Below, piece after piece: positions 37,702 to 41,948 of a DNA stretch of 64,000 nt. Positions within the stretch are counted from its first letter, which is position 1; each line of letters starts with the position of its first letter. The DNA comes from Chloropicon primus. Lineage: Eukaryota; Chlorophyta; Chloropicophyceae; Chloropicales; Chloropicaceae. The position numbers were made by a program, and so were the translations under genes. The stretch is from NCBI GenBank assembly GCA_023205875.1, contig CP060757.1, positions 620,001-684,000 on the forward strand, given 5' to 3'. The notes under the pieces were generated by a model, which made no database searches, had not been told where the DNA came from, and saw nothing but the letters and a program-made list of their open reading frames with translations.

Positions 37702-37963
37702 TCTTCCCCCGTCGTCCTTCACACACGCGCGCGCGGGACAAACAAACTCCTCTCTTCTCTCTCTCTTGGGCTCTTCGTTGCTCGAGCTTTGAATCAGCTG
37801 TTGGAGGTTTTCCCCTGTTGGTGGGATTCCAGTGTATACCAGTTTGGTCACACCCAAAGGACAACCCACTAAGCGTTTTTCTCGTGTTCACTTGCTGGAC
37901 AAGGCAAATCTATAGTTACGAGGAGTTACGAGGAGGGCAGCGAGTGAAACCCTAATAACCGTC

Positions 37964-40132
37964 ATGGCGCGATCAGGGAAGCGCCGTAAGAAAAAGGAGA
38001 AGCAGGGGAGTGGCTCGACGAGTTCCACAAGGAGGTCGCACTCTGGCGAGAGTCATGCTCAGGGCGCTTCGAAGTCGGGGCAGGAGTCTCCGACGACGGA
38101 GCCGTTACGTCGGTTCTGGAATCAGGGTTTAGCCTGGCTCTACGCGTTGTGCCTGCTTCCTATCGCGGACGACCCCGCCTCTGCGGGTGAGGGTTCGAGC
38201 ACGCCTCGCAAGAAGCGGGGGGGGAAGCGGAAGGAGAAGCCGCTGGACGACCCCGCCTCTGCTTTCGAGGAGGGTTCGAGCACGCCTCGCAAGAAGCGGG
38301 GGGGGAAGCGGAAGGGGAAGCGGCCGGAGGCGGACGCCTCTGCGGGTGAGAGTTCGAGCTCGTCAGGCAAGCCTCGCAAGAAGCCTCGCAAGAAGGGCAA
38401 GAAGAAGAACAAGAAGAAGGGCAAGAAGAAGAAGAACAAGAGGGGGAAGAAAGCAGGGAAGCAGCCGGGTGGCTTGGCGGACGACAGCGTGAAGAAGACC
38501 TGGTTCTCATCGATCAAGAGAGAACTTGTAGAGGTAAAGTGTCCGAAGACGGGATGGAGGTCGTGCTTGAACCTTCCAGAAGATTCTGTGGTATCCGTCG
38601 AGACATTGCAGTCGCCCGCCAAAAGGAAGAGGGAGCAGAAACTGAAGACCTCCAAGCTATTGTCGGAGCGAACGGTGATACGGACGAGGAAGCTTAGGAT
38701 GCGCTTGAACCCTGAGCAGGCGAAGTGCCTTTGCAACTGGATGGGAGCTGCGCGTTTCACATACAACAAGTGTTTGGAGGCGGTCAAGAAGGAGGGTTTT
38801 CCGCTGGTTTGGACCGTCCTGCTGGACAGATTTGTGACGGCCAAACCGCGACGCCCTGAGGTCTTTGAGGGCCTGGAGAAAGAGCTGAAAGAAATCCAAT
38901 GCTCTCCACGGCCATGGACAAAACAGGAGGCAGAGCTTTTCGCGGCCAGAGAGAAGAGACTCGAGAGCCAAATTGGAGGCAGACGATTTCGCGCCGAAGT
39001 GGCCAAGGACCGGGACTACGTTAGCGGGGCCTTTGTAAATCAGAAGCATCCTTGGCTGAAGGATACCCCCTGTGCCATCAGACAAGCTGCCGTGCGAAGT
39101 CTCATCAAGGCATGGGATTCGAACATCGCGAAGCAGGAAGCGATGAAGGAGCGCGGCGAGGAGAAGGGGCACCGCTTCGTTCTCAAGTATCGTCAACGTC
39201 AGCAACCGAGCTCTTGGACCATTGAAATTGATGCAAGAGAGTTAAAGAACGTGGAGACGATCGAAAGGCCAAACACGAGGCACAAGGATGACACCAAGCA
39301 CAACAAACGACGCAAGTGGACCAAGCTGGAGGTGTTCAAGAAGAAGATGGCCGGCGGGCCCCTGTACTTGACGGAGGAGATCCCCGGGGGCAAGATCGAG
39401 GGTGCCGTGAAGATCACAAGAAATCGCCTTGGGCAGTTCCACATGCACATTCCCATCGCGACGCCATGGGATCGCCTGCCACCCCTGAAGCCTGAGAACA
39501 AGCGGAAGGTTGTCGCCCTGGATCCGGGAGTCAGGACCTTTCAGACGTCGTACTCGCCGCAAGAAGGCGTCGGGGAGTATGCCACGGGCGAGCGAGGCTT
39601 CGCGAGGCTGTTCAACCTCTGCTGGAGGATTGATGAGATCATTTCCGAGCGCAAAGACCCAAAGGTGAAGCTCCCTTACCTCGACCGCCGCGACTTGAAG
39701 AGACAGCAATACGCCTGCATGGAGAAAATTCGAGGTCTGACGAACGAGCTTCACAAAAAGGTAGCCAACGATCTATGCAGGAGGTTCGACACAATCCTCC
39801 TCCCGGAGTTCAAGTCCCAAGACATGGTGAAGAAGAACAACAACGGGAGACGCCGAGTGATCAGGAAGAAGACGGCTCGCACGCTCTTGACGTTGAGGCA
39901 CTATGCGTTCAGAACGTTCTTGGCTTCCAAGGTGCTCTTGCACGGCAGTGAGCTGGCGATCGTGACGGAGGAGTACACCTCCAAGACCTGTGGCAGGTGC
40001 GGACACATCAAGGACAACCTGGGTGGAGCAGAGGTGTACAAGTGCCAGAAGTGTGGCTTCAAGTGCGGTCGGGATGTGAACGGGGCACGCAACGTCCTCC
40101 TGAAGCACTTGCGTCAACCAAAAAGTGTGTAA
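37964..40132 (+). CDS. Fanzor: eukaryotic TnpB-like RNA-guided nuclease
   Basis: A 722-residue uninterrupted frame. Residues 1-175 are low-complexity and very Lys-rich, with two to three imperfect 26-residue repeats (DDPASAGEGSSTPRKKRGGK type) and likely nuclear localisation signals. The rest is an OrfB/TnpB-like protein: RKLRMRLNPEQ and WMGAARFTYNKCLEAV (wedge/N-terminal helices), RuvC-I VVALDPGVRTF (Asp520), RuvC-II LLPEFKSQDM (Glu615), zinc ribbon CGRCG...CQKC (Cys676, 679, 694, 697) and RuvC-III CGRDVNGARNVLL (Asp704). All catalytic and zinc residues are present, so it looks functional. Length and the LGGAEVYKCQKCG spacer suggest the Fanzor1 type. Fanzors are RNA-guided DNA endonucleases carried by eukaryotic transposons. 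No transposase lies next to it. Confidence 0.93.
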   Translation: MARSGKRRKKKEKQGSGSTSSTRRSHSGESHAQGASKSGQESPTTEPLRRFWNQGLAWLYALCLLPIADDPASAGEGSSTPRKKRGGKRKEKPLDDPASAFEEGSSTPRKKRGGKRKGKRPEADASAGESSSSSGKPRKKPRKKGKKKNKKKGKKKKNKRGKKAGKQPGGLADDSVKKTWFSSIKRELVEVKCPKTGWRSCLNLPEDSVVSVETLQSPAKRKREQKLKTSKLLSERTVIRTRKLRMRLNPEQAKCLCNWMGAARFTYNKCLEAVKKEGFPLVWTVLLDRFVTAKPRRPEVFEGLEKELKEIQCSPRPWTKQEAELFAAREKRLESQIGGRRFRAEVAKDRDYVSGAFVNQKHPWLKDTPCAIRQAAVRSLIKAWDSNIAKQEAMKERGEEKGHRFVLKYRQRQQPSSWTIEIDARELKNVETIERPNTRHKDDTKHNKRRKWTKLEVFKKKMAGGPLYLTEEIPGGKIEGAVKITRNRLGQFHMHIPIATPWDRLPPLKPENKRKVVALDPGVRTFQTSYSPQEGVGEYATGERGFARLFNLCWRIDEIISERKDPKVKLPYLDRRDLKRQQYACMEKIRGLTNELHKKVANDLCRRFDTILLPEFKSQDMVKKNNNGRRRVIRKKTARTLLTLRHYAFRTFLASKVLLHGSELAIVTEEYTSKTCGRCGHIKDNLGGAEVYKCQKCGFKCGRDVNGARNVLLKHLRQPKSV
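38168..38369 (+). repeat. 78-bp tandem repeat in Fanzor N-terminal region
   Basis: Two clear copies of a 78-bp unit (starting at 38168 and 38246) and a degenerate third one encode the acidic-then-basic DDPAS...STPRKKRGGK(R/K) motif. The copies keep frame. Confidence 0.85.
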
Positions 40133-40150
40133 CTCCTCAGGGTTGCACAT

Positions 40151-40287
40151 ACGTTTGTTAGTACGGGCTGCCGTGCGTGGGCGGAAGTATTCGTTCATGT
40201 ACGGTGGAATGGTCGTGGTAGGGCTGAATTACCCTGCCGAGAAACTTACAAACTCGGTGAAACGACCTTTGCAGAAAACTAACAGGT
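40151..40287 (+). ncRNA. Candidate Fanzor guide-RNA (omega/fRNA) scaffold
   Basis: Starting 19 bases after the Fanzor stop, the sequence can fold extensively. An outer stem pairs TGTTAGT (40156-40162) with ACTAACA (40278-40284). A hairpin pairs ACGG (40163-40166) with CCGT (40171-40174). An inner stem GGTCGT (40211-40216)/ACGACC (40262-40267) closes a three-way junction with hairpins GGTAGGG/CCCTGCC (40217-40223/40232-40238, one G-T pair) and CCGAG/CTCGG (40237-40241/40253-40257; it competes for two bases with the preceding hairpin). In known Fanzor and TnpB loci the RNA scaffold lies exactly here, at the 3' end of the gene and right end of the element. The pairing is seen; expression and function are inferred. 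Confidence 0.6.
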
Positions 40288-40325
40288 AAGTAGGGGCCGG
40301 CCTTCTCCGTGTTTCTCTCTTTCAG
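40286..40325 (+). other. Splice-site-like pair downstream of the RNA fold
   Basis: AACAG|GTAAGT is followed 40 bases later by a pyrimidine tract and TTTCAG. This looks like a complete minimal intron, although shorter than any other in the window (67 nt or more). It could be a 3' UTR intron of the Fanzor transcript or chance. Confidence 0.3.
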
Positions 40326-40414
40326 TGGAAAGGAGAACTTGCCTTTGTGCTTCCAGTATTGACTGTGAATTCCCTACCGTCCTTTCGTGACTTTTTCTGT
40401 GTGCTGTTTTTGAT

Positions 40415-40440
40415 CTGATGTCTGAACATCATAACATCAG
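40415..40440 (+). other. Short inverted repeat / hairpin after the Fanzor element
   Basis: CTGATGT (40415-40421) pairs perfectly with ACATCAG (40434-40440) around a 12-base loop. It may mark the end of the mobile element or be a transcript-end hairpin of the Fanzor or CAX gene; it is too short for more to be said. The remaining ~170 bp to the CAX stop shows a poly-T stretch and TTACA at 40579-40583 (TGTAA for CAX). Confidence 0.4.
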
Positions 40441-40613
40441 CTCGGGCTCTTTTTCAAGCCGGCTCGAACGACGAACGAGGTGGGCCCGGCCATGCGCCGC
40501 ATGCGCTGATACTGAAGGCCTTTTTATCGATAATGAAAGGACAATCTTTATTACTTTATCTTTTCCTCTTCTTCTTCTTTACATGATGGACCTCTACACG
40601 CCTCGCCCCCGCC

Positions 40614-41948
40614 TTATTGTTGGATGTCCTTGTCTTTGTGAACGAAGTATGCGCCGCTCAGGATGAAATAAGCGAGGACCAAAGTCAGGCCCTTGAGCCA
40701 GTGCGACTGCCCGTCCCCGATCAGAATGACGGCCGTGATGACAGAGGCGAAGAGGGTGACCGTCTCGAAGGGCTCGAAGTTGAGGTCCAGGGACCTGCCC
40801 GACATCCAAGCGATCACCACGGAGAAGGGTATGACGAAGAGGCAGATCTGGGTGCTTGAACCCACGGCGACCCCGATCGTAATGTCCATCTTGTCCTTCA
40901 TGGCAAACATGACCGCGGCCGCGTGCTCCGCCGCGTTCCCCACAATCGGCAGCAAGATCACGGATATGAAGCTCACGGGAATGCCGATGGACTTGGCCGT
41001 CCCCTCGATCGTGTCCACGATGTAGTCGCTGAGAACGGAGATGAAGATGGTGAACACCCCGAGCCAAACTATGCCGGACCAGAAGGTGATCTCCGGCGCT
41101 TCGTCGTTGTCCCCGTCGTCGTCGTCCCCGTTGTCGTCGAAGAGCTCCGCGTGGGTATTGAGCTGAAAGTGCAAGTAGGCCATGTACATCAGCAGGAGGA
41201 TCATGGAAGAGAAGCGAGAGAGCCCCAGATCCGAAGAGTCCCCGTTGAGCTCCGTGTGCGTGGAATGAAGCACCGCTGGAAGCAGCATTGTCGTCACCCC
41301 GAGCAGCAGCAGGCCGCTGGTCGGCGTCACGCTGTCCCTGCTGAAGCCCTGGATCTTGTGCTTCAGCCCGCCAAAGAAGAAGCCGCACCCGAGAACCAGC
41401 AGCAGGTTCGAGAGTATCGAGCCGAGCAGGGAGAGCTGCACCAGCCGTAGCATGTTCTCCCTTATTGCTATAACGGCAACGATCATCTCCGTCAGGTTGC
41501 CGAAGGTGGCGTTCAGCAAGCCACCCAGAGTCGAATTCGTGTACAGGGCTATCTGCTCCGTGAGGTACCCCAGCCTCTCCGCGAGGGGGCACAGGGCTAT
41601 GAGCGAGAAGACGAAGAGAGTGGAGTCCCCACCCGCTCCACTGATCTTGCACAGTATCGCTATCGGCACAGACGTCAGCAGGAGGTTCAGCTTCGTCCCA
41701 TAGAAAACTGGCCCGATGCTTTCCTTCAAATCTTCCAAGGACAGGGACCTGTTCGGCCCTCCCCTCGCCTGGGAATTCAGCTTGTTAAAAGGCGATAACT
41801 TGGAGTCACACGACAAATCGATCTCCAGACTGTTGGCGTTCTTCTTCAGCAGGGTGTCTTTCACCTCATCCTTGACAAGGTCTCTGTTTCCGTCCAGTCG
41901 ATTTATCTCCAGCGTATTCCCGAGCGCCTGCCCGGTCACCCCTCCCAT
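40614..41948 (-). CDS. Vacuolar cation/proton exchanger (CAX family)
   Basis: A 444-residue, eleven-helix Ca2+/H+ antiporter. The two alpha-repeats carry the family signatures [19 protein letters not shown] (c-1) and [19 protein letters not shown] (c-2), with their essential Glu residues, and an acidic loop ([16 protein letters not shown]) separates the halves as in plant and fungal CAX/Vcx1. The ~90-residue cytosolic N-terminus could be autoregulatory. The family loads Ca2+ or Mn2+ into vacuoles using the proton gradient. It is on the same strand as the phosphate translocator, with the Fanzor gene between them on the opposite strand. Confidence 0.93.

Follow-up and report, generated by a model that had tools for sequence, protein, structure and literature searches.

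For the TnpBs and Fanzors treated in the available text of Saito et al. (2023; PMC10432273) and Yoon et al. (2023; PMC10711439), the guide is derived from DNA adjoining the transposon, so that cutting is coupled to the site of the element itself. The SpuFz1 system of Spizellomyces punctatus is multicopy, has a structured RNA 3' of the Fanzor gene and is accompanied by gene-less ghost loci that retain both terminal repeats; its scaffold extends as far as the right inverted repeat, behind which 14-15 nt of variable flank serve as guide (Saito et al., 2023). Fanzor2* elements of Chloropicon primus have also been published; their transposon is not of the IS607 type, makes target duplications and has terminal repeats that are degenerate (Yoon et al., 2023). 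Here, a 64,000-nt stretch of the C. primus genome was analysed (assembly GCA_023205875.1, contig CP060757.1, forward-strand positions 620,001 to 684,000; hereafter the window), whose Fanzor family is almost certainly the published one. Behind the Fanzor gene, on the same forward strand, lies a structured RNA at 40151-40286. Judged by fold, position and relatives, it is very probably the scaffold of the right-element RNA (reRNA, or omega-RNA) of the adjacent nuclease. In contrast to SpuFz1, the sequence in the guide position is internal to the element and nearly constant among copies, and, compared with what the text on Fanzor2* describes, the scaffold stops 150 nt short of the transposon right end, as do its truncated and scaffold-only relatives. 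A multicopy Fanzor with a scaffold ending deep inside its element has either a frozen guide or a scaffold boundary moved by 150 nt, and the system may bear on how nucleases of this kind persist once a different transposon has captured them.

The initial annotation had proposed a folded RNA at 40151-40287 that begins 19 nt after the Fanzor stop codon and is enclosed by an outer 7-bp stem. Both points hold, as 40151 is the 19th base after 40132 and the outer stem (P1, 40156-40162 with the ACTAACA arm at 40278-40284) is made of seven Watson-Crick pairs with pair probabilities of 0.86-0.93. The 137 nt fold at -53.2 kcal/mol, compared with -38.0 kcal/mol (standard deviation 3.8) for dinucleotide shuffles (z -4.03); none of 200 shuffles was as stable, contrary to the outcome named there as a refutation. 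The trimmed segment 40153-40286 gave z -4.91, again with 0 of 200 shuffles as stable. The inner 6-bp stem of the proposed two-stem architecture stood in part. This stem (40211-40216 with 40262-40267) closes two hairpins as P3 (40211-40267), and enforcing it together with the outer stem gives -53.0 kcal/mol, within 0.2 of the optimum, but it is absent from the single-sequence optimum and its pair probability is 0.42-0.47; its position is supported by the related scaffolds. What the annotation had missed is the long hairpin P2 (40168-40207) between the two stems, with 18 pairs of probability above 0.5. The 3' end of the scaffold reads ...ACTAACAGG.

The gene upstream encodes a Fanzor2-type nuclease of 722 aa (37964-40132, stop codon 40130-40132). 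Its open reading frame (ORF) matches PF07282 (4.2e-18) and PF12323 (2.1e-6), and the NCBIfam model guided_TnpB at 9.1e-26, yet at 91 bits, under the 100-bit cut-off. Motif columns were read from an alignment with eight homologues (nine sequences in total). The RuvC motif D520-P521-G522 is invariant, and DPG in place of D-hydrophobic-G is the criterion for Fanzors in the text of Yoon et al. (2023), from which the assignment to Fanzor2 rather than Fanzor1 for C. primus is also taken. The alternative catalytic Glu, E669, is likewise invariant and lies about six residues ahead of a four-Cys zinc finger starting at C676, and D704 is a further motif residue. With the fold, the conservation given below and these motifs, the proposal of a structured RNA at the canonical guide-RNA position 3' of a Fanzor is supported.

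Judged by homology, the 3' boundary of the scaffold is set independently of the window copy. Protein and DNA searches of the genome (17,584,162 bases in 20 contigs) yielded ten loci with a related scaffold and no complete Fanzor, here also called ghosts. Unlike the SpuFz1 ghosts with both repeats (in the text of Saito et al., 2023), these are bare scaffolds or fragments of a Fanzor truncated at its 5' end: eight (L042, L043, L044 and L046-L050) have only the last 46-96 Fanzor residues, 75-87% identical, followed by the scaffold, and two (L037 and L145) have the scaffold alone, L037 with an extra 16-nt scaffold scrap just upstream. All right ends lie at ACTA(A/G)(C)(A)GG, where homology stops at the equivalent of 40285-40286 and gives way to locus-specific DNA, which independently supports a scaffold end near 40285. 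Over the next 15 nt, mean agreement among the ten ghosts and the window is 26% of positions, about chance, and the best of the 55 pairs agrees at 9 of 15. Common DNA downstream of the ghosts was considered and rejected, as only three of 110 comparisons (the 55 pairs at 20 and 60 nt) reached p 0.01 or less (L042/L049, L046/L050 and L049/L050), which is near chance and partly simple sequence; L046 and L050 retain weak similarity over 60 nt. On the left, the truncated copies break at the window equivalents of 39846, 39849, 39877, 39943, 39961 (L047 and L049), 39962 (L046) and 39990, and the solo scaffolds L037 and L145 near 40135-40143. A search for target duplications at the ghosts gave none that was convincing, the longest words in common being 4-7 nt. 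From sequence alone, the ghosts reveal where the scaffold ends and may also provide a compact version of it. The ghost L044 is also present in duplicate as L045 (C16:60971 and C16:65458), 4,487 bp apart and identical over the 785 nt read.

The same loci bear on the helices. A 12-base P1 pattern, GTTTGTTAGTAC, has 40 genomic occurrences, compared with 3 for its reversal; the 40 are 30 copies of the transposon described below, nine known ghost places and L145, which was newly found in this way. The covariation that the initial annotation had asked for is present to a degree: helices persist with some compensatory change, in a comparison of nine rows from one genome that was set in register by hand, with L042 and L145 left out and no R-scape or other formal covariation statistic. 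All 63 cells of P1 in the nine rows are paired, with U-A/U-G exchanges; for P2, counted in seven rows, 48 of 49 cells are paired and the changes include one G-C/C-G swap and one G-U/G-C exchange. In subfamilies A and B, P3 retains five to six of its six pairs; in L048 and L049 it is a different, fully paired helix of 7 bp. Taken together, these counts are good but limited evidence that the helices are conserved across relatives. A scaffold model run on the window and 22 of 80 viral loci found the window and one weak match, L086 (13 bits, E 3.1), which was dismissed since by eye it lies in a different coding sequence.

The Fanzor is carried by a transposon, family A, with the ends TGTTGG...CATAACA (37799-40436, 2,638 bp, forward strand), which was delimited by sharp ends common to dispersed copies and is flanked in the window by the target-site duplication TCAGC (37794-37798 and 40437-40441). 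Near-full copies in the genome number about 30. A search with the RNA region and its surroundings matched at least 30 places, each along 279 or more of 401 bases, and the Fanzor ORF is full-length and stop-free at 16 places (its own included; 97-100% identity), besides damaged or partial ones (62 rows of search output in all, some copies giving several). Target duplications were tested in 23 copies, namely 20 with a Fanzor and three short elements. Both ends were located by motif in 14 of these, 11 of them flanked by a 5-bp duplication that is perfect (10 of 12 among the Fanzor copies, one of two among the short elements). L036 and L041 failed outright, and L034 failed because the left end detected belongs to a neighbouring short element; the remaining nine copies have a lost or altered end. 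TG...CA ends and 5-bp duplications are also compatible with a long terminal repeat (LTR) retrotransposon or solo LTR, a reading that was dropped as no two full-length direct-orientation copies lie within 10 kb among the places listed; in L034, a Fanzor copy is preceded by a truncated short element in identical orientation.

Both ends of family A also occur without the Fanzor. The left-end module (37799-37913, 115 nt, forward strand) recurs in short non-autonomous elements lacking the gene, and the right-end module (40306-40436, 131 nt, forward strand) in short elements lacking both the gene and the scaffold; the 571-bp element L039 has the 115 nt of the left and the 131 nt of the right module around a different interior. 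The last 131 nt are therefore transposon end and not scaffold. Such elements, about 350-640 bp long with matching ends and an unrelated interior, lie at no fewer than four places among the matches listed (L039:2560-3130, L040, L041 and L034:681-1272). The right end stands by itself at L038, and the short elements of L034 and L040 contain a 103-bp direct duplication.

Among family A copies, 20 of the 30 were taken with wide flanks and aligned, together with the 3' parts of four more (L013, L015, L051 and L052), and the scaffold RNA was found at the equivalent position in all 24. In the 20 copies, the per-site diversity of the RNA is 0.005, lower than that of fourfold sites (0.023), of the right end (0.019) and of 40288-40305 (0.137). 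Two of 135 RNA sites vary, both in apical loops, compared with 17 of 221 fourfold sites in the C-terminal part of the ORF (Fisher p 0.013), and none of the 18 spacer sites varies, so that spacer and RNA together count 2 of 153, as against 8 of 76 sites at 40326-40402 of the right end (p 0.003); both p values are indicative only, because the copies are closely related and possibly convert each other. The divergent copy L051 has 6 mismatches in 126 positions of the ORF part and 0 of 153 in spacer and RNA, and L052 has 0 of 112, 0 of 153 and, in the right end, 4 of 108. A 5-base insertion (GCTAA) lies within P2 in four of the 20 copies.

Reading of the guide from the bases after about 40285 had been proposed as well. 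A scaffold end there is supported by the ten ghosts, but what follows is not flanking DNA: the right end lies at 40436, 150 nt past 40286, and the bases between (TAAGTAGGGGCC...) belong to the transposon. If the scaffold ends at 40286, the guide would occupy 40287-40305 on the forward strand, a slot located by copy alignment and pattern search that drifts in sequence and length among the aligned copies. The degenerate 15-base pattern GTAAGTWGKGGCCGK has 28 matches in the genome, all of them in family A, and is thus present in 28 of 30 copies (the C7 copy and L031, with an inserted T, lack it); the guide slot of the window copy is therefore not copy-specific. By exact matching only, no external target of such a guide was found, since 28 of 28 exact GTAAGTWGKGGCCGK matches fall in Fanzor copies. 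The stretch 40286-40325, directly 3' of the scaffold, also looks like an intron (GTAAGT...TTTCTCTCTTTCAG), and GTAAGT, at 40286-40291 in the window, is present in 20 of 20 aligned copies. An actual intron is hardly credible, because the stretch varies from about 24 nt (L052) to 54 nt (L031), L032 lacks the pyrimidine tract, L051 lacks CAG, and the mean C. primus intron is given as 152 bp (PMC12301720).

These results can be joined in the following scenario, which as a whole is somewhat favoured. The ancestral scaffold would have ended at ACTAAC(A)GG (40285-40286) with the guide starting after it, and this end would have been the right end of the ancestral Fanzor element, perhaps an IS607-like one in view of the GG. 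Fanzor and scaffold may then have been captured en bloc by the 5-bp-duplicating transposon TGTTGG...CATAACA and multiplied with the guide slot fixed; after such a capture, transposition would place no flank behind the scaffold, and copies would inherit a near-identical slot (TAAGTAGGGGCC...). By analogy with Fanzor biology, the scaffold RNA would be made from the 3' end of the Fanzor transcription unit, with or after the mRNA, processed to a scaffold with a short guide and bound by the nuclease, and RNA-guided cleavage would take place next to a target-adjacent motif. The guide would be read at the internal slot and not at the far end.

Several observations weigh against this reading. L042 lacks the P1 5' arm and L145 has one P1 pair broken. 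RNAalifold on a MAFFT alignment gave a weak consensus (-3.41 kcal/mol, 9 pairs), in our reading because hairpins of unequal length misalign, and the fold z-scores of the ghosts are uneven (L048 -3.69, L047 -3.34, L046 -3.20, L049 -2.42, L044 -1.61 and L050 -1.75, the last for a segment that ends short at P1). The left breaks of L046, L047 and L049 coincide within one base, and L047 and L049, which may be of single origin, have about 76 nt more upstream in common that matched nowhere else in the genome in that search, so that not every ghost stands for a separate event; the close relatedness of the family A copies likewise tempers the variation tests. The Fanzor protein may still be under selection, as third codon positions vary more among copies (0.0215) than first and second ones (0.0150 and 0.0117), which is odd if its sole guide has no genomic target. 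Finally, the text of Yoon et al. (2023) has the end repeats and target duplication of Fanzor2* apparently within the scaffold, which favours a guide past 40436.

The strongest alternative, possible although less probable than a frozen internal guide, follows this last point: a longer reRNA would run through the right end to 40436 and the 5-bp duplication, and the copy-specific flank past 40441 would be the guide. This is the published view for Fanzor1s and, as what "appeared to be true", for Fanzor2*s (PMC10711439, in the text available), and it would preserve the selfish logic of the element and account for the intact protein. The terminal TAACA is complementary to TGTTA of the P1 5' arm over 5 pairs and may replace ACTAACA in that pairing, but the exchange costs about 7 kcal/mol (-92.3 compared with -99.2 for native P1). 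Against a longer RNA also stand the occurrence of the right end in scaffold-less elements, the invariance of the ACTAACAG arm in 20 aligned copies, the drifting indels immediately past the scaffold and the ghosts, which stop at the equivalent of 40286. The frozen internal guide is preferred on weighing the two. Its extension, in which targeting is uncoupled from the insertion site in about 30 copies and ghosts additionally serve the enzyme in trans, seems doubtful.

It is unlikely that the guide in cis no longer functions and that ghost guides alone serve the roughly 30 Fanzor copies in trans. The ten ghosts each have a different sequence past the scaffold, and SpuFz1 is active in human cells with omega-RNAs from ghost loci (PMC10432273, in the text available); however, all ghost scaffolds except that of L037 diverge from the window in P2 and P3, two have a damaged P1, and the ghosts may be decayed remnants. 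That the structure is no guide RNA but a mere folded 3' untranslated region or a hairpin inside the transposon, with a role in mRNA protection or termination, is very improbable: no Rfam family came near its gathering score in 39900-40700 (best, a small nucleolar RNA at 19 bits against 50), as such a hairpin would allow, but the structure lies away from the transposon end, recurs beside truncated Fanzor C-termini and alone (L037 and L145), and retains its three-helix architecture across three sequence subfamilies.

As for precedents, no report of an internal guide slot or of C. primus ghosts was found in the open-licence literature, while the figures of Yoon et al. (2023) may already show the C. 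primus reRNA. In strain CCMP1205, 25 proteins are annotated as "putative IS605 transposase" (PMC6731263, in part), and the four database proteins nearest to the window Fanzor are C. primus proteins of that annotation. The set P0005-P0010 comprises metagenomic Fanzor homologues, 40-59% identical. The N-terminal region of the gene (38176-38440) is Lys/Arg-rich with imperfect direct repeats; the alignments of the copies L034-L036 are interrupted there, which suggests that repeat number differs between copies. TGTAA, the usual polyadenylation signal of green algae, overlaps the stop codon at 40128-40132, directly upstream of the scaffold.

The IS607 TnpB reRNA (ISXfa1; PMC10711439, in the text available) offers another comparison, since the ACTAAC(A)GG end is reminiscent of its insertion between GG dinucleotides, and the right ends of the window scaffold and the ghosts finish with GG. 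In contrast to IS607, the window family moves with 5-bp duplications, and no recombinase gene or left end was shown in one element with it. A Resolvase-domain ORF family does occur at four genomic places, none of them shown in one element with a Fanzor. It consists of L141:254-3274 and its relatives L142, L143 and L144, with an ORF of up to 1006 aa (Resolvase domain, 4.4e-10) and an identity of about 98-99% between copies; by sequence it is apparently a mobile element with a serine recombinase. A partial copy of this ORF lies upstream of the ghost L043.
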